From Coprococcus comes ATCC 27758 (lineage in GTDB: Bacteria > Bacillota > Clostridia > Lachnospirales > Lachnospiraceae): a DNA stretch of 64,000 nt. The notes beneath the pieces are model-generated. The model saw nothing but the letters and a program-made list of their open reading frames with translations. It searched no databases and was not told where the DNA came from. The position numbers were made by a program, and so were the translations under genes. Shown one piece after another: positions 7,260 to 23,320 of this stretch (its first letter is position 1; every line of letters begins with the position of its first letter). The stretch covers positions 1,054,001 to 1,118,000 of the forward strand of contig NZ_CP102277.1 of the NCBI RefSeq assembly GCF_025149785.1. The letters are read 5' to 3'.

Positions 7260-7279
7260 ACAGGAGGAATAGAATCAAT

Positions 7280-8252: not shown

Positions 8253-8276
8253 AGGGGCGGAGATGTAATTTTTGCG

Positions 8277-8306
8277 TTGACGGTATCAAGGGATATGGGC
8301 GATACT
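8277..8306 (+). promoter_or_regulatory. Possible upstream promoter with an 18-bp element shared with scfA
   Basis: TTGACG (8277-8282), 18-bp spacer, GATACT (8301-8306). It is embedded in ATTTTTGCGTTGACGGTA (8268-8285), which is identical to 19397-19414 in front of scfA. Confidence 0.5.
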
Positions 8307-8332
8307 TTTATTTTTTAATCCGGGGGAAGCAG

Positions 8333-8361
8333 TTGCGCCAAAAGGAAGCTTATACTATACT
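8333..8361 (+). promoter_or_regulatory. Probable proximal promoter of the sensor gene
   Basis: TTGCGC (8333-8338), 17-bp spacer, TATACT (8356-8361), in a TATACTATACTATAG tract, about 53 bases before the GTG start. Confidence 0.5.
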
Positions 8362-8413
8362 ATAGGTGATAAAAATGCCCGGAGGTGATGAGCCGGGCGA
8401 GAGGGAGGAACTC

Positions 8414-10000
8414 GTGAAAAGGAACACCAGACAGCTTTATTTGATGTTTTTTGTTTTTGCGATAATCATAGCAGCATATTCCTGCCGGCTGCTGGCATGG
8501 TTTGATATAGGAGGGAACTATCCAAGCTATGTGCGTGCCGCATTGTATTTATTATTATTTGTCTTGTGGGGGTATTCTCTGGATCAGCGGATTATTCAGA
8601 AACCGGTGCTGCACTGTCTTCGCTTGATGGATGTTCTGATGCTTATCTGGTTGACTTTGCGTACTTTGAAATATGAGGTGGTTACAGATCTGACCGTGGC
8701 ACGTTATTTGTGGTATCTTTATTACCTGCCGATTCTTTTTATTCCGCTGCTTGGTGCATATACTGCAATTTTTCTGGGAAAATCCGAAGATTATCAGCTT
8801 TCCAGAAAAAGCTGGTTGTTATCGCTGATTCCGACAGCATTGTTTCTGGCTGTTATCACAAATGATTTCCACCAGCAAGTATTTTCGTTTGCGAGCGGAA
8901 TTCCGGGGGTGCCGGATAACAAAGTCTTTTTCCATCGTCCGCTTTATTTTGTGAGTGTTGGATGGACGATAGGCTGTGTATTTTTTTCAGTATTTCAGCT
9001 GCTGAAAAAAACAAGGCTTCCAAGTATTGGAAAGCGGAGAATGATGCCTTTTGTTTTGAGCTGCGTGATGCTCTTGTATGGAGCACTTTATCTTTTGGGA
9101 TTTCAGGTCATCCGTGATGTTTTTGGAGATATGAATGTAATGTTTTGTCTCTTTTATGCTGCAATATACGAAAGCTGTATCCATTGCCGTATGATACAGT
9201 CAAACACAGGGTATGTCGAGTTATATGAGGCGACAACGCTTGCCTCCTGCATTGCAGATCAAAATGGGCGGATTTTGCTTCGTTCCCGCACAGCAGGAGA
9301 GGATATGGTATGTCCAAAAGATGGGAAGAGTATCGTTTATCCGGATGGAATGCGCATCTCTTCGGCACCGATTAAAGATGGTTTTGTCATCTGGGGAGAT
9401 AACTTGCAGCACCTTACCAAGCTTCGCAAGCAGCTTGATGAGAATAAAAGAAAAAGAGAGAATAACAAAAAGAAATTAAAGGATGCTTATCTTGTGCAGA
9501 AGGAGCTATACGAACTAACGGAAAAGAACCGTATTTATGATGAACTGGAAGAAAAACACAAAACCCAGACGAGGAGGATAAAGGAACTTCTTGAACAGTG
9601 TAAGAATGCAAAACCTGAGGTAATGCAGGCGTGTATGAAAGAGATTCTGTTGCTCGGTACTTATATCAAGCGAAGTGCGAATCTGTATTTTCTTTCTCAG
9701 GAATACGAAAAGCTTCCAAAGCAGGAACTCAGGCTGACGATCGATGAACTGGTACGTGCAATGAATTCCTGCAAAATTGAATGTGGTGCGGTCTATTTAA
9801 CCACAAAACCGATAGCATCAAAAGAGGTTGTGCGTTTGTTCGAACTGCTAAAAACGGTAACGGAAATGACGATAAATGAGCTGCATTCGCTGTTTATTTC
9901 TGTGTCCGATCAGGAGATGAATCTGTCTGTAGAATGTGCGGCTGATTTGTCCCCAATTATCTCTTCTGAGGTAACGGCCGACAGGGAGGATGGATTGTGA
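8414..10000 (+). CDS. Membrane sensor protein of a split two-component system
   Basis: 528 residues from a GTG start; AGGGAGGAA sits 4 bases upstream, a better site than the in-frame ATG at 8366. About eight membrane helices fill roughly residues 10-255, resembling the 7TM N-terminal module of some Firmicute histidine kinases. A small soluble segment (YVELYEATTLASCIADQNGRI as seen, first 20) looks PAS-like. A long Lys/Glu coiled coil follows (about 320-410), then a helical tail. No N, G1 or G2 ATP-binding boxes are visible, so it probably cannot phosphorylate by itself. The next gene, 31 bases on, has PAS, His and ATPase parts, so the two proteins together would make one kinase. Confidence 0.7.
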   Translation: MKRNTRQLYLMFFVFAIIIAAYSCRLLAWFDIGGNYPSYVRAALYLLLFVLWGYSLDQRIIQKPVLHCLRLMDVLMLIWLTLRTLKYEVVTDLTVARYLWYLYYLPILFIPLLGAYTAIFLGKSEDYQLSRKSWLLSLIPTALFLAVITNDFHQQVFSFASGIPGVPDNKVFFHRPLYFVSVGWTIGCVFFSVFQLLKKTRLPSIGKRRMMPFVLSCVMLLYGALYLLGFQVIRDVFGDMNVMFCLFYAAIYESCIHCRMIQSNTGYVELYEATTLASCIADQNGRILLRSRTAGEDMVCPKDGKSIVYPDGMRISSAPIKDGFVIWGDNLQHLTKLRKQLDENKRKRENNKKKLKDAYLVQKELYELTEKNRIYDELEEKHKTQTRRIKELLEQCKNAKPEVMQACMKEILLLGTYIKRSANLYFLSQEYEKLPKQELRLTIDELVRAMNSCKIECGAVYLTTKPIASKEVVRLFELLKTVTEMTINELHSLFISVSDQEMNLSVECAADLSPIISSEVTADREDGL

Positions 10001-10031
10001 CTGATACGTACAGCAATAGGAGGAGAGGATA

Positions 10032-10976
10032 ATGCGTAGGTTGAGGCGCTTTGGGTTTAATCGTATCAAGGAAGGATTTGACCAGCTTCCTACGGCGATC
10101 TGCTTTTTTGACAGCAGAGGAAGTATTGTTCTTTGCAACAGGCAGATGTATCGTCTGAGTCATTATTTATTTGAAAGTGATATGCAGTATCTCGGTGAAG
10201 TTGAGCGGGCACTTGCGACCCCCCCGGAAGGAATTCTGCAGCTTTCGAATATGGAGGGTACCTATCGTTTTCCGGATAATACCATATGGCAGTTTGAGAA
10301 AACAGAAGTAACGGATCGATATGGAGAAACCTATATCCAGCTTACAGCTGCGGATGTTACGGAATTGTGTCATGTGCTCGGACTGCTTTTTGTGGAAAAT
10401 AAGAGGCTTGCCGAGGATGAAGAACATCTGCAAAGGTTATCTGAAAATGTGGAGAAGATTGCCCGGGAGAAAGAACTTTTGACGGCAAAATCTGCTATGC
10501 ATGATAATCTTGCAGCCAGTATTATTGTAATGAAGCAGTATCTTTCCGGAGATTTCGGCGGGATCGATGTGGAAACAGTTTTGCGGGAATGGGAGAAGAA
10601 TATTGTTTTTCGGGAGGTCGAACATTTATCAGAAAAAGAGAAATTGTTTGCCAGTGCAAGAAGCAGTGGTGTCCTTGTGCAGATAGAAGGAAAGGAACCA
10701 CCGGGAAAAGCAGCAGAGATGATGTATGCTGCTATGCAGGTATGTCTGAATAATGCCCTTCAATATGCGAGAGCGACAGAACTGGAGGCAAATGTTTTTG
10801 AAAATGAAACCGGCTATACCGTGATGATCTATAACAACGGACAGCCTCCGGAAAGAGAAATCCGGGAAGGCGGAGGACTTACCAATCTGCGTCACCGGAT
10901 TGAAACGGAAGGCGGAAGGATGCTCGTACAGAGTTTTCCGGAGTTTGCTCTGGTAATAGAAATTCCTAAGATTTAA
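10032..10976 (+). CDS. Soluble histidine kinase with PAS domain
   Basis: 314 residues without membrane helices. PAS-like domain at about 15-110 (GFDQLPTAICFFDSRGSIV). A dimerisation segment follows with AMHDNLAASI, in which His157 is the likely phosphorylated residue. The ATP-binding domain shows the N box CLNNALQYA (Asn240/241), a YNNGQPP G1-like box and the G2 box GGGLTNLRHRI. AGGAGGAGA precedes the ATG. The order sensor-kinase-regulator suggests that this cytoplasmic kinase is driven by the membrane protein encoded just upstream. Substrate: the NarL-type regulator encoded next. Confidence 0.85.
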   Translation: MRRLRRFGFNRIKEGFDQLPTAICFFDSRGSIVLCNRQMYRLSHYLFESDMQYLGEVERALATPPEGILQLSNMEGTYRFPDNTIWQFEKTEVTDRYGETYIQLTAADVTELCHVLGLLFVENKRLAEDEEHLQRLSENVEKIAREKELLTAKSAMHDNLAASIIVMKQYLSGDFGGIDVETVLREWEKNIVFREVEHLSEKEKLFASARSSGVLVQIEGKEPPGKAAEMMYAAMQVCLNNALQYARATELEANVFENETGYTVMIYNNGQPPEREIREGGGLTNLRHRIETEGGRMLVQSFPEFALVIEIPKI

Positions 10977-10995
10977 CACGTAGGGAGGAATGAAA

Positions 10996-11631
10996 GTGAA
11001 AAAAATACTAATTGTTGAAGATCAGATGCTTGCCCGTAAGTATTTGTGCTCTTGCATAGAAAAAAGCACAGAATGTGAAGTGGCATCTGCCCTGACCCGG
11101 GCAGATGCAGCATTGCAGAGATGTGGTGAGGGGCATATTGACCTGGTGGTGATGGATATTTGTACAGAAAATGATTCGGATGGATTAGATGCGGCTGAAG
11201 CAATCAAAAAATACTATCCACGGATCAAGATCGTAATGGTGACCTCCATGTTAGAAGGACGATTTCTGGATCGTGCAAGGAAAATAGGAGCGGACAGCTT
11301 CTGGTATAAGGATTCTCCTTTCGGTGATCTTATTAGCGTGATCGAAGGGACACTTGCAGGTAAAAATTTCTGGCCGGACAAGGTGCCGGCTGTGCAGCTT
11401 GGAAAAGCACTTTCCTGTGACCTTTCCGATCAGGAAATGGAAACCTTACGTTTGTTGTGTGAAGGGAAGACGAATGCCGAGATTGCGGCTAAGCTTCATG
11501 TGGCAGAATCATCGGTTCGTACCTATATCAACCGGATGTTAGAGAAAACAGGATACACAAACCGCAATCGCCTGATGGTTGCGGCGGTAAGCAAACGCCT
11601 GGTCGTACCAAGTAGTCAGCTCGACGTATAA
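10996..11631 (+). CDS. NarL/FixJ-family response regulator
   Basis: 211 residues starting at GTG 10996 (VKKILIVEDQ). The AGGGAGG at 10982-10988 is 7 bases from this GTG but only 1 base from the in-frame ATG at 10990, so GTG is preferred. The receiver domain (1-120) has the acidic pair ED (residues 8-9), phospho-acceptor Asp54 in LVVMDICTENDSDG and the conserved Lys in FWYKDSPF. A LuxR-type helix-turn-helix follows: LSDQEMETLRLLCEGKTNAEI (first 20) and SSVRTYINRML. It presumably binds DNA after phosphorylation by the adjacent kinase. Target genes are unknown; the envelope-type cluster just downstream is a candidate. Confidence 0.93.
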   Translation: MKKILIVEDQMLARKYLCSCIEKSTECEVASALTRADAALQRCGEGHIDLVVMDICTENDSDGLDAAEAIKKYYPRIKIVMVTSMLEGRFLDRARKIGADSFWYKDSPFGDLISVIEGTLAGKNFWPDKVPAVQLGKALSCDLSDQEMETLRLLCEGKTNAEIAAKLHVAESSVRTYINRMLEKTGYTNRNRLMVAAVSKRLVVPSSQLDV

Positions 11632-11660
11632 GAAGAAAATAAAATAGGATTTAGATGTGA

Positions 11661-11698
11661 AAATTGCTCTGCTTTTTATTAGGTAGAGCGATTTTTTT
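11661..11698 (+). terminator. Intrinsic terminator of the two-component operon
   Basis: AATTGCTCT pairs with AGAGCGATT (one G-T pair) around a loop, followed by seven T. It separates the two-component genes from the degenerate receiver gene. Confidence 0.8.
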
Positions 11699-11824
11699 GT
11701 GTAAAATGCTTATTTGTCCACATTTATGAGGACAGACAGAGCTATTTTTCTCTGTTAGACTAAAGAAAAAAAGAAATATAGCAGACACATCGGATATATC
11801 GCTGAAAGAAAGGAGGATGGTTCG

Positions 11825-12208
11825 ATGCGAAAAATAGTGGTTGATATGCAGAATTTTCTGTTTGCGGATTCCGTAGCGACTGCCTTCAAAAAATCGGATT
11901 ATGAGATTGATGTAGTCCGTACGGAGTCTCCAAAAGATACGGTTGAACTTTGTAAGCTTTATAAACCGTTTGTTCTTATCATGGAGGTGACGGGCTATAC
12001 TCCGTGGAAGCTTTGCGAGAGAATGAAGCTTCGGGATGAAGTAAAGAGGGTGTGTCCTGACTGTAAAATTGCTTTCATCGTGGATTCCAATACAGAAAAA
12101 CAGGCGGCAAAAGACATTCGGGATGCGAAGAAAAACGGTCTTATCGACCAGTTCTTCTATGGATCCATGACTGCTGAATATCTGATGGATCAGATTTATG
12201 CGATGTAA
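11825..12208 (+). CDS. Stand-alone degenerate receiver-domain protein
   Basis: 127 residues with the length and alternating pattern of a CheY-type receiver: MRKIVVDMQNFLFADSVATA, VLIMEVTGYTPW, KIAFIVDSN. The phospho-acceptor position reads Glu54 (IMEVTGY) in place of Asp, the second acidic residue of the pair is missing, and no conserved Lys is seen near GLIDQFFYGS. It therefore probably works in a phosphorylation-independent way. AGGAGG precedes the ATG. It follows a terminator and an AT-rich gap with short inverted repeats (TGTCC/GGACA at 11718-11737, CAGAG/CTCTG nearby). It may regulate or accompany the SPFH cluster downstream; this is inference from position. Confidence 0.65.
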   Translation: MRKIVVDMQNFLFADSVATAFKKSDYEIDVVRTESPKDTVELCKLYKPFVLIMEVTGYTPWKLCERMKLRDEVKRVCPDCKIAFIVDSNTEKQAAKDIRDAKKNGLIDQFFYGSMTAEYLMDQIYAM

Positions 12209-12274
12209 GGAAATGGAAGAACCACCGAGAAGAAACTGCGTATATATCCGACTGACAGAAAGAAGAAAAGAGAG

Positions 12275-12466
12275 GTGAAAAAAGCTGTTTTCACAAACAG
12301 TTATAATGCGAAGAAAGCAGTAGCTCCGGTACAGAAGAAGGCTCCGGACGATAAAATGAAATCTCCTAAGACCGGTAACGACAGCCTGATGGTTATCTGG
12401 ACTACAATGATTCTTGCCGTTTTGGAGAAAGAAAAAAGGTTCAGTCTTTACAAGGAGAAATGTAAT
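12275..12466 (+). other. Short open frame with a sortase-like signal, possibly a gene remnant
   Basis: From GTG 12275 the frame reads 64 codons straight into the downstream lipoprotein start. It contains SPKTGNDSLMVIWTTMILAV, which looks like the end of a sortase-anchored protein (PKTG, hydrophobic stretch, then EKEKR). There is no signal peptide and the hydrophobic stretch is short. It could be the leftover tail of a surface-protein gene. It is unlikely to be the true N-terminus of the next gene, which has its own signal peptide and ribosome binding site. Confidence 0.35.
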
Positions 12467-13396
12467 ATGAAGAAAATATCATTACTGTTTTGTTTGATAA
12501 TCCTGCAGGCCGGCTTATTATGCGGATGCAGACTGCCTCATAAGAGCAGTCCGCAAAAGCCTGTGGAAGGCGAGAATAAAAGCGGTCTTGTGAAAGTACA
12601 GGATGATAAAAAAGAAGAAAAGAAGGAAGAAAAAGAGGAGACGGGGAAGACAGAAATCGTCGAGACGGAAGATACGGAACTGGCATTTCTCAGAAAGCAG
12701 ATCAATCAAAACGGCTGTGGTGCAGGAGTTGCACTTTTCGGGTATGTGGACAGTGAATTTACAATGACAGATCTTTCATTTTACCTGGAATTTCATCATT
12801 TAACAAAAGAGTATCCGTTTTTGTCAGAGGCAGCCTGTTACATGGCGGATGGGCAGGAACTGTATGCCATCGTTCCGCCAAATGGAAAAGGCAGAGTGAC
12901 CGTCTATCCTTCTGATATCACGGAAAATGGTGAATATGCAGATGATAAGAGTCATCCGTTATTTGAAGGAAAACCGGGAGAGGCGCTTGTGCTACGTTGT
13001 AATTTCAGTGAGATCTATTCCAATGTACTGGTTTCGGTGACAGATGGTGGCGATGCCATAGATTTCCACCCGTCGATTTCATTAATGGACGGCCATCTGG
13101 CGGAACTTGCCGGAGTATATGATTTCTCAGTCTATGAGGAAACACCGGATGAACGTTCGGTTGAAATCGCAACAGAGATCCTGCTGGAGTATGGAGAGGT
13201 CAGGCAGGGACTGGAAAATGGAATGAAGCTTATGTATACAGGAGAATCAGAGATCATAAACGGAGGCAGCTGTATGCTTTTTGTATTAGGAACTGATAAT
13301 GGAGAACAGTTTGTGCAGGAACAGCTTTACGGCGTTTGTGATAATCTCATTTATATTTATGATGTTTTTACAGACACATGGAATGCCGCATATTAA
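12467..13396 (+). CDS. Putative lipoprotein of unknown function
   Basis: 309 residues from ATG 12467, with AAGGAG 9 bases upstream. The N-terminus MKKISLLFCLIILQAGLLCG-C has a hydrophobic core and an LCGC lipobox, so Cys21 would be lipid-modified. A Lys/Glu-rich linker (about 40-65) follows, then a globular part of about 240 residues that I do not recognise. It carries few Cys and ends in VFTDTWNAAY. It would sit on the outer face of the membrane. It lies between the degenerate receiver gene and the SPFH gene on the same strand, 69 bases before the latter. Confidence 0.7.
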   Translation: MKKISLLFCLIILQAGLLCGCRLPHKSSPQKPVEGENKSGLVKVQDDKKEEKKEEKEETGKTEIVETEDTELAFLRKQINQNGCGAGVALFGYVDSEFTMTDLSFYLEFHHLTKEYPFLSEAACYMADGQELYAIVPPNGKGRVTVYPSDITENGEYADDKSHPLFEGKPGEALVLRCNFSEIYSNVLVSVTDGGDAIDFHPSISLMDGHLAELAGVYDFSVYEETPDERSVEIATEILLEYGEVRQGLENGMKLMYTGESEIINGGSCMLFVLGTDNGEQFVQEQLYGVCDNLIYIYDVFTDTWNAAY

Positions 13397-13465
13397 ACCG
13401 TGTTCTTCCGGTGTAACCGGATAACATAGAGGAAGATCATTTCAAAAAGGAAAGGAGAAAATATT

Positions 13466-14914
13466 ATGGGACTTATTAAAGCAGGTATGGGTGCTCTTGG
13501 AGGTACTTTTGCAGATCAATGGAAGGAATTTTTCTACTGTGAATCGATGCCAAAGGAGGTACTCGTTACAAAAGGACAAAAACGTGTCACCGGACGTTCA
13601 GCGAACACCAAAGGAAATGACAATATTATCTCGAACGGCTCTGGAATTGCTGTAGCAGACGGACAGTGTATGATCATCGTAGAACAGGGCAAGGTCGTAG
13701 AAGTCTGTGCAGAACCGGGAGAATTTACTTATGATACTTCTTCCGAACCGTCTATTTTTGCAGGCAGCCTTGGAGAGAGTATCAAAGAAACCTTTAAAAC
13801 CGTAGGAAAACGTTTTACTTACGGAGGAGATACCGGAAAGGATCAGAGAATCTATTATTTTAATACCAAGGAGATTCTGGAAAATCGCTTCGGAACGCCG
13901 AATCCGGTTCCGTTCCGTGTTGTGGATTCCAAGATCGGACTTGATATCGACGTATCGATCCGCTGTTCAGGTGTCTATTCTTACAAGATTGCCGATCCGC
14001 TTTTGTTCTACTCTAATGTTTGCGGAAATGTGGAGCAGGAATACTCCAGAGAGGAACTGGATGCTACTCTTAAGACAGAGTTTATCTCTGCTCTTCAGCC
14101 GGCATTCGGACATTTGTCTGAACTGGAGCTTCGTCCGAATCAGATCGTGACACATAATACAGATCTTGAAAATGCGATGAATACGGCACTCTCAGAAAAA
14201 TGGGGTGCACTTCGAGGATTGAAGGTTGTAAGTATTGCACTTGGATCTGTGACTCTTCCGGATGAAGATGCAGAACTGATCAAACAGGCTCAGCGTACAG
14301 CAATCATGCGTGATCCTACAATGGCCGCAGCAACGCTGGTCGGAGCACAGGCTGATGCAATGAAGACTGCAGCCGGTAATCAGGCCGGTGCAATGACAGG
14401 CTTCATGGGCATGGGCATGGCAATGAATCAGGGCGGCGGTATGAACGCACAGAATTTATTTGCAATGGGTCAGCAACAGCAGGAGCAACAGGCACAGCAG
14501 ATGGCGGCGCAGCAGGCTGCACAACAAGCCGTTCAGCAGCCGGCAACGCAGGCAGACGGATGGAAGTGCAGCTGCGGAAACTTTGTTACCGGCAAGTTCT
14601 GTCCGGAATGCGGAAGCAAGAAACCGGAACCACAGCCGGCACCGGGTGCATGGAAATGTAAATGCGGAGCCACAGCAACCGGTAAGTTCTGTCCGGAATG
14701 CGGATCACCAAAACCGGTAGAGGAAGAAGGATGGACCTGTTCTTGCGGTTCAGTGAATAAAGGAAAATTCTGCCAGAACTGTGGAGCAAAGAAACCGGAA
14801 GGCGCACCGCTTTACCGTTGTGATAAATGTGGATGGGAACCGGAAGACCCGACACACCCACCGAAATTCTGTCCGGAATGTGGCGACATCTTTGACGAGA
14901 ACGACAGACAGTAA
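13466..14914 (+). CDS. SPFH-domain protein with C-terminal zinc ribbons (YdjI-like)
   Basis: 482 residues. The first 300 form an SPFH/virion-core-like domain as in Bacillus YdjI: MGLIKAGMGALGG start, FYCESMP, EQGKVVEVCAEPGEFTYD. There is no N-terminal membrane helix. A Gly/Met-rich segment and a Gln/Ala-rich low-complexity linker (about 310-362) follow. Four short zinc-binding repeats come next, each pairing CxCG or CxxC with CPECG or CQNCG, up to residue 480. SPFH proteins scaffold membrane microdomains. In B. subtilis YdjI works with PspA, YdjG and YdjH in the envelope stress response. Here YdjG- and YdjH-like genes follow but no PspA gene is present in the window. AAAGGAGAAAA precedes the ATG. 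Confidence 0.85.
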   Translation: MGLIKAGMGALGGTFADQWKEFFYCESMPKEVLVTKGQKRVTGRSANTKGNDNIISNGSGIAVADGQCMIIVEQGKVVEVCAEPGEFTYDTSSEPSIFAGSLGESIKETFKTVGKRFTYGGDTGKDQRIYYFNTKEILENRFGTPNPVPFRVVDSKIGLDIDVSIRCSGVYSYKIADPLLFYSNVCGNVEQEYSREELDATLKTEFISALQPAFGHLSELELRPNQIVTHNTDLENAMNTALSEKWGALRGLKVVSIALGSVTLPDEDAELIKQAQRTAIMRDPTMAAATLVGAQADAMKTAAGNQAGAMTGFMGMGMAMNQGGGMNAQNLFAMGQQQQEQQAQQMAAQQAAQQAVQQPATQADGWKCSCGNFVTGKFCPECGSKKPEPQPAPGAWKCKCGATATGKFCPECGSPKPVEEEGWTCSCGSVNKGKFCQNCGAKKPEGAPLYRCDKCGWEPEDPTHPPKFCPECGDIFDENDRQ

Positions 14915-14937
14915 TTCGAGAGAGAGGAGGGAATTCT

Positions 14938-15420
14938 ATGTTTAGACTCCCATCAGAAAAAGAGGAACATAAGACCACAATCGGTGCTTTGATTTTAAGT
15001 ATCTTCATTATTATCGCAGGAATCGGCGGCATGATATATACGAAGCATGAAAGCAGTGAGTTTAAGAATTCCACGGATGTTCGAACGCTTCATGCAACCG
15101 TTTACAGTTGTGAACAAACGAAAGAAAAAGATGATAAGGGAGACCGAAAAGAAAAATATAAAGTAAGGTTTACTTATGAAATCGATGGAACGACATATGA
15201 TGATTTTGATACTTACTATAAAGAAATCAGGAAAGGGGATACTGTACTGATCACTGTTTACCGGAACTCTAAAGGAAAATACAAATTGGAACCGGGACCA
15301 ACTCCGATTTACTTCCTTGCATTTGCTGCAATGATTCCGCTAGGTCTCATTGGTTTTGTCGCACTAAGTAAAGATCTTATCAAGTATCACCGGGAAGAAA
15401 AAGAAGGTAGAAGACTGTAA
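14938..15420 (+). CDS. DUF3592-like membrane protein
   Basis: 160 residues. Two membrane helices (about 18-36 and 121-143) flank a charged beta-rich domain (about 40-115) with YKVRFTYEIDGTTYDDFD and KGDTVLITVYRNSKGKYKL, the pattern of DUF3592 proteins. The middle domain probably faces outside. It starts 23 bases after the SPFH gene with GAGAGGAGGGAATT upstream, so it is in the same operon. A paralogue follows directly. Function unknown. Confidence 0.65.
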   Translation: MFRLPSEKEEHKTTIGALILSIFIIIAGIGGMIYTKHESSEFKNSTDVRTLHATVYSCEQTKEKDDKGDRKEKYKVRFTYEIDGTTYDDFDTYYKEIRKGDTVLITVYRNSKGKYKLEPGPTPIYFLAFAAMIPLGLIGFVALSKDLIKYHREEKEGRRL

Positions 15421-15468
15421 GTATTGGAAGGAAAATGATGAAGTAAAAGATAGGAAGGAGGGGGTTGC

Positions 15469-15933
15469 GTGAAGGTACTTTCAGATAAAGCACAAAATAA
15501 GGTGATATGTGTATTCTTACTGATTGGTTCGATTGGGCTCGTTGTATATGGAGTTACTCATATTTTTTCCAGTATAGAATATAAACTATCTTCCGATGTT
15601 CGTCAGGTAACCGCCGTTGTAAAAGATTATCAGATAAGTGTTAAGACTGATGAAGATGGCGATGAAGATGTAAAGTATCACGCAATTCTGTCCTTTGAAG
15701 TGGATGGAAAAACCTATACAGGAAAAGATGTATTTTCCAGAGATATATCCCGGGGGGATGAAGTGACAGAGAAGGCTTACCGGGCTTTGAATGGAGAATA
15801 CAAGCTTTACACAGGCGATATAGGTGATAACATTACCTCCGTTATGATGATCCCGGCGGGAATCATTATCTCCATATTCCTGATCTATGAAATATTTGGT
15901 AAGAGCAAAGAGAAGGAACAAGAGGAACAATAG
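15469..15933 (+). CDS. DUF3592-like membrane protein, paralogue of the preceding gene
   Basis: 154 residues from GTG 15469, preceded by AGGAGGGGG. It has the same plan as its neighbour: a helix at about 11-31, a beta-rich domain with YHAILSFEVDGKTYTGKDVF and RALNGEYKLYTGD, and a second helix at about 126-146. SSDVRQVTAVV aligns with STDVRTLHATV in the neighbour, indicating a tandem duplication that has diverged strongly. Function unknown; it is likely a partner of the SPFH protein or of its neighbour. Confidence 0.65.
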   Translation: MKVLSDKAQNKVICVFLLIGSIGLVVYGVTHIFSSIEYKLSSDVRQVTAVVKDYQISVKTDEDGDEDVKYHAILSFEVDGKTYTGKDVFSRDISRGDEVTEKAYRALNGEYKLYTGDIGDNITSVMMIPAGIIISIFLIYEIFGKSKEKEQEEQ

Positions 15934-15970
15934 GTCAACCAGATAGAATGATAGATGAGGAGGGATAAAT

Positions 15971-17278
15971 ATGGGATTGTCAGAGGCGATGCTGTTTGCG
16001 TTTGCAGCTACCATAATCTGTGTGTTTGCCATTGCTGAGAAAATCATTGACATAGACTTTGAACAGTTTATGCCAAAGAATTTGAAAAAAGCAAAAATGA
16101 AAAGAATTCTTGCAAAGCGTGAAACACCGTTGCAAGGGGCAAGGCTTCAGAAGGATATCAAAGATTCCTTTGAAAACGTATTACTTCCACTTGGAAAAGC
16201 AGATAAGGGTTATCTTCCAAAGAGAATGGATCTTACATTTCGCAGAAAGATGGTTCATCAGGTGGAACTGCTGGGAAAGCGTAAGCTTTGCCGAGATATC
16301 CAGGTGACGGACGTTGTACCACTTCCAAAAAATAATTTCAAAAGATGGAATGATGACGGACGGGAGTGGAGGGAGTCTATCCTGCAATGTAGTTCTTTGG
16401 AACGTCTTATTTTTCCTCAATCTGGTAAGACAGTGCATCAGATCTATCGGAAAAACAGTTACCTTCGGATCCTTCAGTCAAGGCATATCCGTCATTCTGA
16501 CCGTCAGGGTAAGAACAAGGAATTTTATTCCGATAAAGGGACGATCATCTGTCCATCCTGTGGAGCTGAGGTGGAACTGAGCAGTCAACAAGTCATCTGT
16601 CCATATTGTGGCGGTGTGATACAAAGTGAATTCTACGATTGGCAGACAGAGGTATTCGAAATTTATGAGAAAATGGGTGCGAACATGCAATACGGACTAT
16701 TATTGCTTGCTTACTCGGGCATCATGTTCCTGTGTCTGACCTTGTGCCTTTACCTGATCAAAGACACGGATATTTCTCTTACCATAGGTGTAATTGCTAC
16801 ACTGCTTATACTTCTGGGAATTGCGAAAATTTTTCAATCCAAGGAAGAGAAACAGGAAAAGCTGCCGAAGGAGATCGTCAGATACTCGGAAAATTATCTG
16901 AGATCCTGCATCAATGATGCACTTTATAAGGATGTAAACAAGCCGGATCTGATGGATTATGGAATCGGATCGATCATACTTAAAAATGTTGTAAATACAG
17001 ACAAAACAACAGAAATCACCGCTACGGCATATGGAAGTGAAACCTACCTGCCTGAGAGTGGAAAACCGTATACAAAGAAAACAAAAACGACACTCGTTTT
17101 GCAGAGGGCGAGATATCCAGAAAGAAGGAAGACGGACGGATCATTTTTCAAGGAAAAAGATTGCCCATCCTGTGGAGCCAATTTCATACCGGATGAACAC
17201 AATTGTTGTTCCTTCTGTGGTTACAGCTTCCAGGTAGACAATGCCAAATGGGTCGTAAAAGCAACAGGAGAATCATAA
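15971..17278 (+). CDS. Multi-pass membrane protein with two zinc ribbons
   Basis: 435 residues. An N-terminal helix (about 5-25) leads to a basic soluble region of about 170 residues. A first zinc ribbon (CPSCG, CPYCG, about 197-216), two adjacent helices (about 236-260 and 265-287), a second soluble domain and a second zinc ribbon near the C-terminus (CPSCG, CSFCG) follow. No enzyme motif is seen. Zinc ribbons in this gene and both ribbon-bearing neighbours hint at a shared structural role at the membrane. GGAGGG precedes the ATG 10 bases upstream. I do not recognise the family. Confidence 0.65.
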   Translation: MGLSEAMLFAFAATIICVFAIAEKIIDIDFEQFMPKNLKKAKMKRILAKRETPLQGARLQKDIKDSFENVLLPLGKADKGYLPKRMDLTFRRKMVHQVELLGKRKLCRDIQVTDVVPLPKNNFKRWNDDGREWRESILQCSSLERLIFPQSGKTVHQIYRKNSYLRILQSRHIRHSDRQGKNKEFYSDKGTIICPSCGAEVELSSQQVICPYCGGVIQSEFYDWQTEVFEIYEKMGANMQYGLLLLAYSGIMFLCLTLCLYLIKDTDISLTIGVIATLLILLGIAKIFQSKEEKQEKLPKEIVRYSENYLRSCINDALYKDVNKPDLMDYGIGSIILKNVVNTDKTTEITATAYGSETYLPESGKPYTKKTKTTLVLQRARYPERRKTDGSFFKEKDCPSCGANFIPDEHNCCSFCGYSFQVDNAKWVVKATGES

Positions 17279-17324
17279 ACAAGAAAAGAAAATGTCCGGA
17301 AATCCGGTATTGGCTGAAAGGAGG

Positions 17325-17423
17325 ATGAATTATGCAAACAAATGTGCAATCTATGGCGACCGTACAGAGTGGATCCGGAGAGCGGACGAAGCACTTGCGG
17401 AATTTGATCGACAGGCGCATTAA
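17325..17423 (+). other. Possible small ORF in the gap before the zinc-ribbon gene
   Basis: AAAGGAGG at 17317-17324 is followed by two ATGs in different frames. The ATG at 17325 gives 32 residues (MNYANKCAIYGDRTEWIRRA and so on) but touches the ribosome binding site. The ATG at 17332 is well spaced (7 bases) and gives 51 residues that run 49 bases into the next gene. Such a site without an obvious product suggests either a small protein or a leader. Neither product is recognised. Confidence 0.25.
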
Positions 17424-17438
17424 GAGAGGAGGATTTTT

Positions 17439-18533
17439 ATGGCAGGCTTGCAGGAATATAAATGTCCCTGCTGTGGCGGTGCGATAGCCTTTGACAGTAC
17501 GATCCAGAAGATGAAGTGTCCGTATTGCGACACAGAGTTCGAAATGGACGCATTGAAGGGATATGATGCCGAACTGCAGGACGAAGAAACAGACAGCATG
17601 GAATGGGAAACCGCAGCAGGCGGTGAATGGGGAGAAGGAGAAACGGATGGTCTGCGTACTTATGTGTGTAAATCCTGTGGAGGAGAAATTGTAGGTGACG
17701 CAAATACAGCGGCAACATCCTGCCCATTCTGTGATAATCCAATCGTTATGATGGGACAATTCTCCGGCTCCCTGAAACCGGATCTGGTCATTCCGTTTAA
17801 ACTGGATAAAAAAGCAGCAAAAGAAGGGCTCATGAAGCATCTTACAGGAAAACGTCTTCTGCCGAAGATTTTTAAGGATCAGAACCATATTGACGAGATC
17901 AAAGGAGTCTATGTACCGTTCTGGCTATTTGATACCGATGTAGACGCTAAGGTCCGTTATAAGGCAACCAAGATCCGTACTTGGAGTGACAGTGATTACA
18001 ATTATACCCAGACCAGTTATTATATGGTGCACAGAGGCGGAAGTGTTGGATTTGAATACGTTCCGGTAGATGGCTCTACAAAAATGGCGGATGATCTGAT
18101 GGAATCCATCGAACCGTTTAACTGTAGGGAGGCAGTGGATTTCCAGACGGCTTATCTTGCCGGTTACCTGGCAGATAAGTATGATGTGACTGCAGAAGAA
18201 AGCATTGACCGGGCGAATGAGCGTGTGAAAAAATCTACGGAGCAGGCATTTGCCGAAACAGTCATTGGTTACGATACTGTAGTAGCTGAAAATACCAGTG
18301 TACAGTTCCATGGCGGAAAAGCCAAGTATGCTTTATATCCGGTGTGGCTTTTAAATACCACATGGAATGGTAACAAATATACATTTGCAATGAACGGACA
18401 GACCGGAAAATTCGTCGGCGACCTGCCGGTAGATAAGGCGGCAGCAACCCGTTGGACACTGGTACTGGCAGGTGCGTTCACTGCATTAACATACGGTGCA
18501 GCAACACTTCTGCACTTTCTCGGACTGTTTTAG
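17439..18533 (+). CDS. Zinc-ribbon membrane-associated protein (YdjG-like)
   Basis: 364 residues. Two zinc ribbons at the N-terminus (CPCCG with CPYC near 9-31, and CKSCG with CPFC near 77-100) are followed by a domain with PDLVIPFKLDKKAAKEGLMK, PFWLFDTDVDAKVRY and ALYPVWLLNTTWNGNKYTFA. A C-terminal membrane helix lies at about 343-362. This architecture matches the Bacillus YdjG family, often mis-annotated as primosomal protein N-prime because of the ribbons. It is probably a membrane partner of the SPFH and TPM proteins encoded around it. AAGAGAGGAGG precedes the ATG. Confidence 0.75.
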   Translation: MAGLQEYKCPCCGGAIAFDSTIQKMKCPYCDTEFEMDALKGYDAELQDEETDSMEWETAAGGEWGEGETDGLRTYVCKSCGGEIVGDANTAATSCPFCDNPIVMMGQFSGSLKPDLVIPFKLDKKAAKEGLMKHLTGKRLLPKIFKDQNHIDEIKGVYVPFWLFDTDVDAKVRYKATKIRTWSDSDYNYTQTSYYMVHRGGSVGFEYVPVDGSTKMADDLMESIEPFNCREAVDFQTAYLAGYLADKYDVTAEESIDRANERVKKSTEQAFAETVIGYDTVVAENTSVQFHGGKAKYALYPVWLLNTTWNGNKYTFAMNGQTGKFVGDLPVDKAAATRWTLVLAGAFTALTYGAATLLHFLGLF

Positions 18534-18544
18534 GGGGTGACGGA

Positions 18545-19363
18545 ATGAAAAAGAAAATAATATCACTTCTGCTTGTTCTGGCCCTTTGCCTGGGGATGAC
18601 GTTTTCGGTTTCAGCCGAAGATGCAGAAGGATTTGCAAATGATTATTGTCGTGTGCAGGACATGGCGGGACTTATGACGGATAGTGAGGAAGCAAAATTA
18701 AATGACATACTTGATGAACTGAGTATCCGACAGAAAATGGATGTTGTCGTTGTGACAACAAATACGCTGGATGAAAAAACGGTGCAAGAATACGCCGATG
18801 ATATTTATGATTACGGAAACTTCGGATATGGACAGGATAAGGATGGAATCCTTCTTCTCATTAGTCTGGGAGAAGAGAATGACTGTTATATTTCAACCTG
18901 TGGTTACGGAATCACAGCTTTTACCGATGCAGGGATCAAATACATTTCAAAAGAAATGACGAGTGATCTGAAGGATGAAAATTATTTTTCGGCATTTCAG
19001 ACTTTTTCAGAGCTGTGTGACGAATTCATTACACAGGCAAGAAACGGAAAGCCGTATGACAGGAAAAGTCTTCCAAAGGAGCCATTATCCCCAATCTGGA
19101 TTTTGATCTCCCTTGGGGTAGGAGTTGTTCTGTCACTTATCATTGTCGGCAGGATGAAGGCACAGCTTAAAACAGTGCGTTTCCAGTCAGCGGCAGGCAG
19201 CTATGTAAAAGACGATAGTCTGGATATTACAGAAAGCAGAGATATGTTCCTTTATGAAACGACTTCGAAAACGGCGAAAGAAAAGAAGAGCTCTTCCGGC
19301 GGCAGCAGTACACATACTTCTTCATCAGGAAGAACCCACGGTGGCGGAGGCAGCAAATTCTAG
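18545..19363 (+). CDS. Secreted/membrane TPM-domain protein (YdjH/YgcG-like)
   Basis: 272 residues from ATG 18545, 11 bases after the previous stop; the longer frame from 18452 lies inside that gene. Signal peptide about 1-22 (ending VSAEDAEG). A TPM (TLP18.3/Psb32/MOLO-1) domain at about 27-150 shows VQDMAGLMTDSEEAKLND, VVVTTNTLDEK and GKDGILLLISLGE-like strands. A membrane helix follows at about 183-204, then a cytoplasmic tail ending in a Ser/Gly-rich HGGGGSKF, typical of the family. With the SPFH and zinc-ribbon genes it completes a YdjG-H-I-like set. Last gene of the cluster. Confidence 0.85.
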   Translation: MKKKIISLLLVLALCLGMTFSVSAEDAEGFANDYCRVQDMAGLMTDSEEAKLNDILDELSIRQKMDVVVVTTNTLDEKTVQEYADDIYDYGNFGYGQDKDGILLLISLGEENDCYISTCGYGITAFTDAGIKYISKEMTSDLKDENYFSAFQTFSELCDEFITQARNGKPYDRKSLPKEPLSPIWILISLGVGVVLSLIIVGRMKAQLKTVRFQSAAGSYVKDDSLDITESRDMFLYETTSKTAKEKKSSSGGSSTHTSSSGRTHGGGGSKF

Positions 19364-19405
19364 GGAAAATACCTCCTGTCATTGGTTTTAGATTGGATTT
19401 TTGCG

Positions 19406-19435
19406 TTGACGGTAAGCTGGAAAATGTGCTATACT
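19406..19435 (+). promoter_or_regulatory. Promoter of scfA
   Basis: TTGACG (19406-19411), 18-bp spacer, TATACT (19430-19435), 35 bases before the scfA start. The -35 lies in ATTTTTGCGTTGACGGTA, identical to 8268-8285. Confidence 0.75.
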
Positions 19436-19470
19436 GTATCACATAATGAGCAAAGAAGGAGGATATTACA

Positions 19471-19614
19471 ATGAAACACATTAAAACATTGAATACACAG
19501 ACTCTGAACAATACAGTAAAGAAGGGCGGATGCGGAGAATGCCAGACATCCTGTCAGTCAGCATGCAAGACTTCTTGTACAGTAGGAAATCAGACTTGCG
19601 AACACAGCAAATAA
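19471..19614 (+). CDS. scfA: SCIFF family ranthipeptide precursor
   Basis: 47 residues beginning MKHIKTLNTQTLNNTVKKGG with six cysteines at positions 21, 24, 28, 32, 36 and 43. This is the six-cysteines-in-forty-five-residues pattern of the SCIFF peptides, found across Clostridia. The cysteines are converted to thioether bridges by the radical SAM maturase encoded by the next gene. The gene is too short for ordinary ORF cut-offs. AAGAAGGAGG precedes the ATG. It is transcribed from its own promoter and followed by a hairpin. The biological role of mature SCIFF is unsettled; a signalling role has been proposed in Clostridia. Confidence 0.95.
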   Translation: MKHIKTLNTQTLNNTVKKGGCGECQTSCQSACKTSCTVGNQTCEHSK

Positions 19615-19654
19615 GAGATATTTGTAAGTGTAGTGAATAAGTATGACAAGCAGG

Positions 19655-19674
19655 CAGCGGCTTTAAAGCCGCTG
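19655..19674 (+). terminator. Hairpin between scfA and scfB
   Basis: CAGCGGCTTTAAAGCCGCTG is a perfect 10-bp palindrome followed by TCATTT and not a true T-run. It may partly terminate or stabilise the 3' end, giving more scfA than scfB transcript. Confidence 0.5.
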
Positions 19675-19729
19675 TCATTTGACGTATGAGGAAAAATTTG
19701 AAAAATAAGGATAGAAAGGGGTACCGGTT

Positions 19730-21127
19730 GTGATTCATCAGTACCAGAACAATGGATATAATATTGTACTTGATGTCAACAGCGGATGCGTTCATGTAGT
19801 GGACGAGCCGGGGTACGAAGTTATTGCATGTCTGAACCGTATGAACGAGAATCAGACAGTGCAGACGCTGAAAGAAGAAAGTACATGGAACCAGCTGAAA
19901 GATGAGCTGGAAGGGAAATATTCCGAAGAAGAACTTAGAGATATATTGGATGATGTGACAGAGCTGACTGCAAACGGACAGCTTTTTGTTGTTGATACAT
20001 ATGAACCTTTTATCGGGGAGGTTATCAAGCGTAAGACGGTTGTGAAGGCACTCTGCCTGCATATCGCACACGACTGCAATCTTGCCTGCAAATACTGTTT
20101 TGCAGAAGAAGGAGAGTATCACGGAAGAAGAGCACTTATGACTTATGAAGTTGGTAAGAAAGCCCTGGATTTCCTGATCGCCAATTCCGGAACAAGAAGA
20201 AATCTGGAAGTTGATTTCTTTGGCGGGGAGCCGCTGATGAACTGGCAGGTTGTCAAAGACCTGGTGGCATACGGAAGAGAGCAGGAAAAGCTTCATGATA
20301 AGCATTTCCGCTTTACAGTAACTACGAACGGAGTGCTTCTGAATGATGAGATTCAGGAGTTTATCAATAAAGAGATGGATAACGTGGTCATCAGCCTTGA
20401 CGGACGTAAAGAAGTCAATGACAGAATGCGTCCGTTCAGAAATGGAAAGGGAAGCTATGATCTGATCGTACCGAAGTTCCAGAAGCTTGCTGATTCACGT
20501 AATCAGGAGCGCTACTATATCCGCGGAACATTTACCAGAAACAATCTGGATTTTTCAGAGGATGTAAAGCATTTTGCAGAGCTTGGCTTCAAGCAGATGT
20601 CGATCGAACCGGTTGTCGGGGATGAATCTGATCCGTATGCAATCCGTGAAGAAGATCTTCCGCAGATCTTTGATGAGTATGACAAGCTTGCAAGATATAT
20701 CATTGAGAAAGACAAAAAGGGAGAAGGATTCAATTTCTTCCACTTTATGATCGACCTGGAAGGAGGACCTTGTCTGTACAAACGTCTGTCCGGATGTGGT
20801 TCGGGAACAGAATACCTTGCTGTTACTCCATGGGGAGATTTCTATCCGTGTCATCAGTTTGTAGGTGATGAAAATTTCCTGATGGGAAATGTAAACGAAG
20901 GAATTACAAGACCGGAGATCGCGGATGAGTTCCGTTGCTGCAATGTATATACCAAAGAAAAATGCAAGAAATGTTTTGCAAGATTCTACTGCAGTGGCGG
21001 GTGTATGGCAAACGCATACAAGTATGCAGACGGATTAAATGATTCTTATAATCTGGGCTGTGAGATGGAACGTAAGCGCGTAGAATGCGCGATTATGATA
21101 AAGGCTGCAATGGCAGACGAAAACTAA
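19730..21127 (+). CDS. scfB: SCIFF radical SAM maturase, thioether-forming
   Basis: 465 residues from GTG 19730. N-terminal peptide-binding (RRE-like) region about 1-95; radical SAM core with CNLACKYC (the CxxxCxxC that holds the 4Fe-4S cluster) near residue 110; FFGGEPLMNW. A C-terminal SPASM/twitch cluster region has GSGTEYLAVTPWGDFYPCHQ, CRCC-like and CKKCFARFYCSGGC motifs with many Cys for auxiliary clusters. It forms Cys-to-alpha-carbon or similar thioether links in the SCIFF peptide encoded just upstream. The neighbourhood scfA-scfB-secDF is conserved in many Clostridia. Confidence 0.96.
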   Translation: MIHQYQNNGYNIVLDVNSGCVHVVDEPGYEVIACLNRMNENQTVQTLKEESTWNQLKDELEGKYSEEELRDILDDVTELTANGQLFVVDTYEPFIGEVIKRKTVVKALCLHIAHDCNLACKYCFAEEGEYHGRRALMTYEVGKKALDFLIANSGTRRNLEVDFFGGEPLMNWQVVKDLVAYGREQEKLHDKHFRFTVTTNGVLLNDEIQEFINKEMDNVVISLDGRKEVNDRMRPFRNGKGSYDLIVPKFQKLADSRNQERYYIRGTFTRNNLDFSEDVKHFAELGFKQMSIEPVVGDESDPYAIREEDLPQIFDEYDKLARYIIEKDKKGEGFNFFHFMIDLEGGPCLYKRLSGCGSGTEYLAVTPWGDFYPCHQFVGDENFLMGNVNEGITRPEIADEFRCCNVYTKEKCKKCFARFYCSGGCMANAYKYADGLNDSYNLGCEMERKRVECAIMIKAAMADEN

Positions 21128-21142
21128 GAAAGGGACTTGGAC

Positions 21143-23308
21143 ATGAAGAAGAGTAAAGGAATAGTAAGCCTTGTTCTGATTGCTGCACTTTTAGGACTTC
21201 TTGGATTTACCTGCTGGCAGGGATTTGGTTCCTCCCACACAGGTTCTGCAAGAAATATCAATCTTGGTCTTGACCTTGCAGGTGGTGTCAGCATCACTTA
21301 TCAGGCAAAAGACAAGAATCCTTCAGCAGAAGATATGAAGGATACGATCTACAAGTTACAGAAGCGTGTAGAGCAGTACAGTACGGAAGCAAGTGTATAT
21401 CAGGAAGGGGACGACCGGATCAACATCGAGATCCCAGGTGTATCCGATGCCAATAAAGTTCTGGAAGAACTCGGCAAACCAGGATCACTGGTATTTCAGG
21501 ATGCAGATGGCAACACCGTTCTTGAAGGAACAGATGTTAAAAATGCAGAGGCCCAGACGCAGGAAAACTCTACGACTAAGAATAAAGAATATGTTGTAGC
21601 TCTGCAGCTTACCAAAGAAGGAACAACCAAATTTGCAGAAGCAACAGCAGCAAATGTAGGAAAACAGATTTCCATTATTTATGATGGACAGACAATCAGT
21701 TCACCAAGAGTTAATCAGGCAATCGAAGGCGGAGAAGCCGTTATCACAGGGATGTCAAGCTATGAAGAAGCAGACAATCTTGCAGCTACCATCCGAATCG
21801 GTGGACTTTCTCTGGAACTGGAAGAACTTCGCTCTAATGTAGTAGCTGCACAGCTCGGAGAAGAAGCAATCAGCACAAGCTTAATGGCTGGTGCCATCGG
21901 ACTTGCCATCATCTTCGTATTTATGTGCTTCGTATATCTGATTCCGGGACTTGCAGCAGGTCTAGCACTTCTGATCTATACAGGACTGATCCTGGTGCTT
22001 TTAAATGCATTTAATATCACGCTTACCCTTCCGGGTATTGCAGGTATCATCCTTGGAATCGGTATGGCAGTCGATGCCAACGTTATCATTTTCGCCCGTG
22101 TGCGTGAAGAAGTGACAACAGGTATCAGTATTAAGACTTCCCTGAAGAATGGTTTCCACAAAGCACTGTCTGCGATCGTTGACGGTAACGTAACAACTCT
22201 GATCGCTGCAGCTATTCTCTGGTTCAAGGGTTCAGGTTCTGTAAAAGGATTTGCACAGACACTGGCACTTGGTATTGTTGTGTCAATGTTTACGGCACTT
22301 GTTATTACCAGGATCATCATTTTCTCTCTGTATGCGATTGGTCTTCGTGATGTGAAATTTTATGCGAAGAAATTCAAAAAAGAAAGAAAAGTTATCGACT
22401 TTCTCGGAAAGAAAGCCATTTTCTTTGCAATATCAATTGCTGTGATCGCAGCAGGTTTTGTAACAATGGGAGTCCAGTCGGGAAAAGGTGAAGGTGCGCT
22501 GAACTACAGCCTGGAATTCAAGGGCGGTACGGCTACAACCGTAACATTTGATAAAGATTACTCGATCAAAGAGATTGATTCAAAGATCGTTCCGGTTGTA
22601 GAAGATGTGACTGGAGATCACAATGTACAGGCACAGAAAGTAAAAGACAGCAATCAGATCATCATCAAGACACAGACGCTGAATCTTGACGAAAGAGAAG
22701 CACTTAACAATGCGCTTGCTGATAAATTTGGTGTAGACACATCGACAATTACAGCAGAAAATATCAGTTCTACGGTAAGCTCCGAGATGAGACAGGATGC
22801 GATCATTGCAGTTATCATTTCAGCGATCTGTATGCTGATCTATATCTGGTTCCGGTTCAAAGATGTACGTTTCGCATCAAGTGCGGTTCTTGCTCTTTTA
22901 CACGATTTGTTATTTGTGCTTACATTCTATGCACTTGCAAGAACATCTGTCGGTAATACATTTATCGCATGTATGCTGACAATCCTTGGATATTCTATCA
23001 ATGCGACGATCGTTATTTTCGACCGTATCCGTGAAGAGCTTCGGGTCATGAAGAGAAACGATGATCTGAAAGCGCTTGTAAACAGAAGTATCACTTATAC
23101 ACTGACAAGAAGTATTTACACAACATTTACTACATTTGTCATGGTAGCGGTTCTTTATATCATGGGTGTAAGCTCTATTAAAGAATTTGCAGCACCTCTT
23201 ATGGTTGGTATTGCAGGTGGCGGATATTCATCTGTATGTATCACCGGTGCATTATGGTATGTAATGAAAACAAAAATCGGCGGCAAAAAAGCAGCGAAAA
23301 AGAAATAA
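21143..23308 (+). CDS. secDF: Protein translocase subunit SecDF (fused SecD and SecF)
   Basis: 721 residues from ATG 21143, with AGAAAGGG 8 bases upstream; the TTG at 21137 is not needed. SecD half about 1-405: helix 1, NLGLDLAGGVSITYQ, the periplasmic domain and GIGMAVDANVIIFARVREE. SecF half about 425-721: LEFKGGTATTVTF and GYSINATIVIFDRIREEL. Twelve membrane helices are expected. It uses the ion gradient to pull proteins through SecYEG after SecA action. The fusion is common in Firmicutes. It ends KTKIGGKKAAKKK. Confidence 0.97.
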   Translation: MKKSKGIVSLVLIAALLGLLGFTCWQGFGSSHTGSARNINLGLDLAGGVSITYQAKDKNPSAEDMKDTIYKLQKRVEQYSTEASVYQEGDDRINIEIPGVSDANKVLEELGKPGSLVFQDADGNTVLEGTDVKNAEAQTQENSTTKNKEYVVALQLTKEGTTKFAEATAANVGKQISIIYDGQTISSPRVNQAIEGGEAVITGMSSYEEADNLAATIRIGGLSLELEELRSNVVAAQLGEEAISTSLMAGAIGLAIIFVFMCFVYLIPGLAAGLALLIYTGLILVLLNAFNITLTLPGIAGIILGIGMAVDANVIIFARVREEVTTGISIKTSLKNGFHKALSAIVDGNVTTLIAAAILWFKGSGSVKGFAQTLALGIVVSMFTALVITRIIIFSLYAIGLRDVKFYAKKFKKERKVIDFLGKKAIFFAISIAVIAAGFVTMGVQSGKGEGALNYSLEFKGGTATTVTFDKDYSIKEIDSKIVPVVEDVTGDHNVQAQKVKDSNQIIIKTQTLNLDEREALNNALADKFGVDTSTITAENISSTVSSEMRQDAIIAVIISAICMLIYIWFRFKDVRFASSAVLALLHDLLFVLTFYALARTSVGNTFIACMLTILGYSINATIVIFDRIREELRVMKRNDDLKALVNRSITYTLTRSIYTTFTTFVMVAVLYIMGVSSIKEFAAPLMVGIAGGGYSSVCITGALWYVMKTKIGGKKAAKKK

Positions 23309-23320
23309 CTGACAGAAAAT

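Follow-up and report, generated by a model that had tools for sequence, protein, structure and literature searches.

An 11.1-kb block of Coprococcus comes as a possible mobile, PspA-independent relative of the YdjGHI envelope-stress complex

The stretch of DNA considered here, which we call the window, comprises 64,000 nucleotides of the genome of Coprococcus comes ATCC 27758 (NCBI RefSeq assembly GCF_025149785.1, contig NZ_CP102277.1, positions 1,054,001 to 1,118,000 of the forward strand; Lachnospiraceae). It carries a series of six genes encoding an SPFH protein, two DUF3592-like membrane proteins, a membrane protein with two zinc ribbons (hereafter the double-ribbon protein), a YdjG-type protein and a TPM-domain protein (Table 1). 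An earlier note, made from the letters alone, had described these genes as an expanded, PspA-less version of the YdjG-YdjH-YdjI set of Bacillus subtilis. The six open reading frames (ORFs) that it listed are all present, on one strand and with intergenic gaps of 11-160 bp. They do not form the whole unit; they are part of a larger, 11.1-kb block that reaches upstream to about position 8,286 and brings signalling genes of its own.

Table 1. Features of the 11.1-kb block and its borders (window coordinates; aa, amino acids; 7TM, seven-transmembrane)
Feature	Position	Strand	Remarks
18-bp perfect direct repeat, left copy	8268..8285	+	includes first hexamer of a promoter-like site
11.1-kb block	8286..19396	+	missing at the matching site of congener G150; collinear with Faecalicatena faecalis from about 8400 to 19400
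7TM sensor protein	8414..10000	+	HisKA_7TM over cut-off; alternative ORF start 8366
Soluble PAS-containing protein	10032..10976	+	sub-threshold PAS match; histidine and ATP-binding motifs by eye
LuxR/NarL-type response regulator	10990..11631	+	Pfam
127-aa receiver-like protein	11825..12208	+	by eye; without Pfam family
Lipoprotein	12461..13396	+	signal by eye; no Pfam family; family present at 9 of 17 loci (window and L132-L147)
15-bp palindrome	13407..13421	+	just 5' of SPFH gene; loose echoes in some relatives
SPFH protein, 482 aa	13466..14914	+	Band_7_1, E 4e-17; four C-terminal zinc ribbons by motif; no hydrophobic segment
DUF3592-like membrane protein 1	14938..15420	+	two hydrophobic segments
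Exchanged segment (1.9 kb)	15441..17356	+	96.9% identical to F. faecalis; flanking matched pieces 72-83%
DUF3592-like membrane protein 2	15469..15933	+	two hydrophobic segments
Double-ribbon membrane protein	15971..17278	+	two zinc ribbons over Pfam cut-off; three hydrophobic segments
DUF4428-like stub, 32 codons	17325..17423	+	in 160-bp gap; internal deletion; intact in F. faecalis and relatives
YdjG-type protein	17439..18533	+	two N-terminal CxxC...CxxC ribbons by eye, profiles below cut-off; placed by YdjG family tree
TPM-domain protein (YdjH-type)	18545..19363	+	PF04536, 103.9 bits; N-terminus resembling a signal, then one more hydrophobic segment
18-bp direct repeat, right copy	19397..19414	+	overlaps promoter-like site ahead of the SCIFF-type peptide gene downstream

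The family assignments proposed for the six products stood up in part when checked with Pfam. Band_7_1, the TPM domain and the ribbons of the double-ribbon protein exceed their cut-offs, whereas the DUF3592 matches and the ribbons of the SPFH and YdjG-type proteins fall below them, those of the SPFH tail being read as motifs. DUF3592 (PF12158) is the top family for both paralogues, yet at 17.4 and 23.4 bits against a cut-off of 25.3; the two proteins align to each other at 62.7 bits, and among their relatives DUF3592 is the commonest family (matched by 10 of 16 at E 0.1, the lowest E being 9.5e-5). Hydropathy predicts no hydrophobic segment for the SPFH protein, two for each DUF3592-like protein, three for the double-ribbon protein, none for the YdjG-type protein and two for the TPM-domain protein; the YdjG-type protein possesses a weak C-terminal segment whose peak of 1.58 lies just under the threshold of 1.6. 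In profile comparisons the double-ribbon protein and Tim44-like proteins match through the ribbon regions alone and not through their domain parts; Tim44 itself has no match in the window genome. An internal duplication of the double-ribbon protein was considered and rejected, since its halves match through the ribbons and nothing is left once these are removed. A conserved operator 5' of the SPFH gene was likewise dismissed: relatives show just a loose CCGG hairpin, and this at some loci only.

Upstream of the SPFH gene, the block encodes a 7TM sensor protein, a PAS-containing protein, a response regulator, a receiver-like protein and a lipoprotein. Pfam found no ATPase domain in the sensor, and the PAS-containing protein is, to judge from its motifs, likely the kinase partner of this sensor. 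Homologues of the receiver-like protein occur in F. faecalis, in genome G043 and in one metagenome-assembled genome of the Oscillospiraceae. At both block ends the window ceases to be collinear with F. faecalis (Lachnospiraceae), and the congener G150, whose flanks are 94% identical, presents an empty site in which window positions 1-8306 and 19397-24510 abut. Neither G152 nor G153 gave a blastn match to the block at this site, and the contig of G151 stops there. An 18-bp direct repeat, a pattern picked after it had been seen, borders the block. The empty site looks like a cross between the two repeat regions, and the junctions by themselves are therefore compatible with either insertion or loss; both the YdjG tree described below and the scarcity of the block within the genus point to gain rather than loss. 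Pfam recognised no integrase or relaxase among the block genes, and the block does not therefore classify as an integrative conjugative element. Directly 3' of it, at 19471-21127, lie what we take to be genes for a SCIFF-type peptide and its radical-SAM maturase. Because the promoter-like site ahead of the peptide gene shares bases with the right repeat, the insertion may alter expression of this gene.

The B. subtilis operon couples PspA with Band-7, zinc-ribbon and TPM proteins (Ravi et al., PMC11237479), and in that bacterium the soluble SPFH protein YdjI depends on YdjG and YdjH for its membrane location, while PspA in turn depends on YdjI (PMC8581546). The window cluster shares with pspA-ydjGHI, whose domain composition is given in PMC11237479, a zinc-ribbon YdjG, a TPM-domain YdjH and a soluble SPFH protein that bears a ribbon at its C-terminus. 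The kinship claimed by the earlier note is borne out by an hhalign probability of 99.8% between the SPFH family of the window and a five-row profile of SPFH proteins in YdjI position, the rows coming from the same bacterial family and not including B. subtilis YdjI itself. Unlike B. subtilis, the window genome lacks a PspA match, and the SPFH gene stands first and not last as in pspA-ydjG-ydjH-ydjI. The SPFH protein has 482 aa and four ribbons, in contrast to the one ribbon found in eight YdjI-type proteins of the same family, and the cluster adds the DUF3592-like pair, the double-ribbon protein, the lipoprotein and the signalling genes. The PspA-YdjG-TPM-SPFH operons of the family (L108, L111, L112, L116) encode the same three core families; they differ in that PspA is directly 5', YdjG belongs to another clade and the SPFH proteins have 321-353 aa with one ribbon.

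Whether pspA resides elsewhere in the genome was readily answered: the PspA profile PF04012 gave zero matches on the single contig of 3.37 Mb, and the same profile matched 9 of 14 control genomes, B. subtilis among them. The gene has thus not simply moved. We then considered a family sample of 150 genomes, one per genus, with PspA called by the family cut-off (43 genomes over it; 52 with any match) and the SPFH type of the window set by a threshold of about 130 bits of our own choosing (62 genomes). PspA is found in 7 of these 62 genomes but in 36 of the 88 others (Fisher p 9e-5), or in 11 of 62 versus 41 of 88 when sub-threshold matches are included (p 0.00025), statistics that ignore the relatedness of the genomes. 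YdjG homologues occur in 102 of the 150 genomes and in 60 of the 62. The lack of PspA is common to a broad SPFH-YdjG-TPM group that, in the YdjG tree, encloses the window cluster; "PspA-less" hence describes the genome correctly without setting this cluster apart. Of the 16 genomes to which the double-ribbon protein led, four possess PspA and 12 gave no match, several of them draft or metagenome assemblies. In one of the four, Butyricicoccus pullicaecorum (L141), pspA lies inside an accessory-bearing cluster, and PspA consequently looks like an optional partner. Among eight genomes of the window genus, five have a YdjG homologue, and the full-length double-ribbon protein is restricted to the window genome, two others showing marginal matches over a ribbon.

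Gene orders were read from 60 neighbourhoods of YdjG matches, mostly the best ones, so that the following counts do not represent a random sample. SPFH, YdjG and TPM genes follow each other in that order in 23 neighbourhoods (19 directly adjacent, four with intervening genes), and SPFH occurs in some other layout in three more. The B. subtilis order, with PspA 5' of YdjG and then a YdjI-type SPFH protein, was seen in seven (TPM unrecognised in three), a YdjI-type SPFH protein without PspA in the fetched DNA in one, YdjG with TPM only in 16, and YdjG alone in 10. As the SPFH-YdjG-TPM order and also the larger gene set recur in other genomes, the six-gene arrangement is not a product of chance. 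Ten YdjG homologues of 416-447 aa (L076, L082-L090) are without recognised SPFH, TPM or PspA neighbours; one of these lone loci, L088, adjoins the same trio of sensor, PAS and regulator genes.

The YdjG tree, built from 72 rows by a quick method without bootstrap, covers loci with a YdjG gene and omits L061 and L147, which are the same loci as L132 and L062; L062 was labelled as expanded by hand, L138 was entered under TPM-only, and L141 and L117 under PspA/YdjI. Eight of the nine rows with PspA or a YdjI-type SPFH protein fall into two clades apart from the group of the window. There, the window YdjG clusters with those of F. faecalis, Frisingicoccus and an uncultured relative (four rows, support 98), nested among rows without a neighbouring PspA. 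By tree path it is closer to Massiliimalia of the Oscillospiraceae than to the congener G155, to which it is 62% identical.

When bacterial genomes were scanned for the double-ribbon protein, 16 loci emerged, hence 17 with the window. A DUF3592-like gene precedes the double-ribbon gene, directly or with one gene between, in 14 of the 17, the exceptions being L142, L144 (where a 625-aa SPFH ORF spans the place) and L147. The SPFH, DUF3592-like, double-ribbon, YdjG and TPM genes are all together in eight (window, L132-L137, L141), although contig ends truncate the SPFH ORF of L133 and L136 and the YdjG gene of L141; four loci have the pair without a core gene in the fetched DNA (L139, L140, L143, L145), two of them at contig ends. 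Accessory pair and core are thus found together in Faecalicatena, Frisingicoccus, Massiliimalia and others, Massiliimalia and related assemblies having extra DUF4428, DUF6935 and more lipoprotein genes. The co-occurrence that the earlier note proposed to test is consequently real but rare: the double-ribbon profile matches 26 of the 150 family genomes, 21 of these with at most 28.1 bits, and by our reading only five go beyond a weak partial match, namely the window genome (G000), G148, G102, G025 (one internal stop) and G135 (two fragments). In G043, a DUF4428-type protein with a C-terminal zinc ribbon is encoded between SPFH and YdjG without the DUF3592 pair (L064:8846-9739). Near the accessory genes of L134, L137, L139, L142, L144 and L146, a solute-binding protein, a LuxR-tailed protein (of 551 aa in L137) or both are again encoded, possibly as a second sensor module.

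Mobilization or recombinase genes lie within about 5 kb at no fewer than 6 of the 16 related loci, at least, since chosen ORFs were scanned. They encode a relaxase and MobC (L132 and L133, those of L133 being assigned by clustering with the L132 genes and not by the scan), MobA/MobL (L134), a conjugative coupling protein (L137), RepA and an actin-like protein (L139) and serine recombinases (L140). The number of ribbons on the SPFH protein rises from one in eight YdjI-type proteins and one to three in 27 simple PspA-less loci to four in six expanded clusters; this comparison ignores relatedness and omits the duplicates L061 and L147, L133 (SPFH cut to 123 aa by a contig end), L141 and L146 (four ribbons each), L136 (cut, three ribbons) and L144 (625-aa ORF, three ribbons). 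These motif counts suggest that the zinc ribbons may be docking sites for ribbon-bearing partners.

A comparison with F. faecalis reveals a mosaic. A segment of 96.9% identity stands between matched pieces of 72-83%, and this argues for a recent exchange with F. faecalis. At fourfold-degenerate sites, the second DUF3592-like gene and the double-ribbon gene are 95-96% identical, the first DUF3592-like gene is 76% identical, and the genes for signalling, lipoprotein, SPFH, YdjG and TPM proteins share only 35-54%. Between F. faecalis and Frisingicoccus, the DUF4428-like, YdjG and TPM genes retain 67-81% fourfold identity, whereas the window reaches only 46% (YdjG) and 40% (TPM). Single genes have thus been swapped within a stable frame. 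The DUF4428-like gene, whose F. faecalis product scores below the DUF4428 cut-off (24.4 versus 27.8 bits), has suffered an internal deletion in the window, with a short repeat at the ends of the deletion, and one gene that F. faecalis has between the two DUF3592-like genes, a lipoprotein gene by eye, is absent. The SPFH proteins are nevertheless 95% identical at 51% fourfold identity and the YdjG proteins 90% at 46%, and for the SPFH gene in particular such purifying selection argues for a maintained function.

In the window as well as in relatives, genes for sensor, PAS and regulator proteins are close to cluster genes, and the 7TM sensor was seen in 7 of the 17 double-ribbon loci. A second member of this sensor family, 31% identical, is encoded elsewhere in the window genome (G000:C1:271712-273172). 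In LiaFSR-type Psp modules, two-component genes are linked to a membrane-stress module. The window likewise has two-component genes beside a membrane-stress-like module, but it differs by the absence of PspA/LiaH and by a sensor of HisKA_7TM type and a kinase that seem to be separate proteins. Lia is named among the contexts of PspA in PMC11237479.

These data lend support to an interpretation of the block as a relative of the YdjGHI complex for envelope stress that moves horizontally, is independent of PspA and is equipped with its own signalling genes, and we would give this interpretation about an even chance (roughly 0.5). Rather more tentatively, and with odds somewhat below even, it can be specified as a scaffold that is transferred among gut Clostridia and governed by a two-component system of its own; a multi-ribbon SPFH protein would take the place of PspA in it and dock variable ribbon-bearing partners, the modular accessory genes for DUF3592-like, double-ribbon, DUF4428, DUF6935 and lipoproteins supplying these. 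By analogy to B. subtilis YdjGHI, one would expect the window proteins to build an SPFH scaffold attached to the membrane. Envelope damage would be perceived by the 7TM sensor, perhaps together with the lipoprotein, whereupon the PAS kinase and the LuxR-type regulator would turn on the genes between 11825 and 19363. Beneath the membrane, the SPFH protein, itself soluble, might then assemble, tethered by zinc-ribbon contacts with cytosolic ribbons of YdjG and the double-ribbon membrane protein, with the TPM domain and the DUF3592 loops presumably oriented outside. The SPFH patch may shield or rigidify the membrane, a task for which B. subtilis recruits PspA, so that the SPFH scaffold itself would be the end effector in place of PspA. 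Topology, contacts, regulation and function of the block proteins are in all these respects predictions drawn from their sequences and neighbours, as are the membrane microdomain and the mutual interactions through ribbons put forward in the earlier note.

Several observations weigh against this interpretation. The sensor family comprises 24 loci in 19 of the 150 family genomes, and just 7 of the 24 (6 of 23 without the window) are near YdjG, SPFH or double-ribbon matches; we made this count ourselves, and fragmented assemblies and unlisted matches render it a lower bound. For an assumed background of 5% this linkage gives p ~0.0008, and for 7% ~0.004, the background being our own estimate. 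Promoter-like sites, sought by a sigma-70-type scan, are no commoner in the window than in shuffles of it. The ninth PspA-labelled row of the YdjG tree, L141, sits among PspA-less rows, and L138, otherwise rich in cluster genes, shows no SPFH gene in the fetched DNA. The profile matches for DUF3592, the YdjG ribbons and PAS are all below cut-off, and shared ancestry is disregarded in the anticorrelation of SPFH type and PspA. Finally, the window copy could be decaying, given that two F. faecalis genes are missing.

Among the alternatives, the one that survives best, though we regard it as unlikely, is a complex for assembly or quality control of membrane proteins, in which an HflKC-like SPFH protein would cooperate with a TPM chaperone instead of forming a stress shield. 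Band-7 and TPM partners are indeed argued by Ravi et al. (PMC11237479) to act chaperone-like in membrane-complex assembly, and several ribbon proteins of the block have no assigned binding target. Pfam recognised neither a protease nor an insertase in the block, however, and the linkage to sensor and regulator genes suggests a stimulus-dependent use.

The mobility genes near related loci (relaxase, MobC, coupling-protein, RepA or serine-recombinase genes) and the recent exchange between genera would equally suit cargo of mobile elements that serves membrane-acting defence or exclusion directed at phages or conjugation. We consider this improbable: among the block proteins Pfam recognised neither a nuclease nor a toxin nor an NTPase, and PADLOC returned no match for 7 of 10 proteins and three weak matches for the others, the best with E 0.003 over a ribbon region, by which a known anti-phage system was rejected. 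Still less probable is a decaying insertion without present function. The DUF4428-like stub and the further gene absent relative to F. faecalis speak for decay, but the remaining ORFs are open, and the conservation of the SPFH and YdjG proteins far exceeds that of their fourfold sites. An ordinary PspA-YdjGHI system with PspA acting from elsewhere in the genome, for which the B. subtilis precedent (PMC8581546), pspA within the accessory-rich Butyricicoccus cluster and PspA in 7 of the 62 genomes could be adduced, is very improbable in the face of 12 out of 16 double-ribbon genomes, several of them draft or metagenome assemblies, in which PspA had no match, and is ruled out for the window genome by the negative PF04012 search with its 9 of 14 positive controls, barring a PspA too divergent for the profile.

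Flotillin-NfeD operons pair an SPFH protein with a partner that has two transmembrane segments. We therefore considered the DUF3592-like proteins as NfeD substitutes, a proposal rejected after a profile comparison with 32 NfeD sequences gave no similarity; the window genome does carry NfeD elsewhere, not in the cluster. Among genes outside the block, the window contains one for a protein with five rhodanese-like domains (266-2578, minus strand) and one for an APH/choline-kinase-like phosphotransferase (6114-7175) next to dTDP-rhamnose-type genes.

In the parts of the literature open to our search, no description was found of a PspA-less YdjGHI cluster, of its accessory genes or of its mobility. 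Genomes that possess a YdjGHI-type set with extra partners and no PspA offer a natural test of the role that this set plays on its own. Moreover, the presence or absence of the block at one and the same site, together with the exchange of single genes among gut genera, suggests a transferable trait, plausibly one directed against envelope stress.

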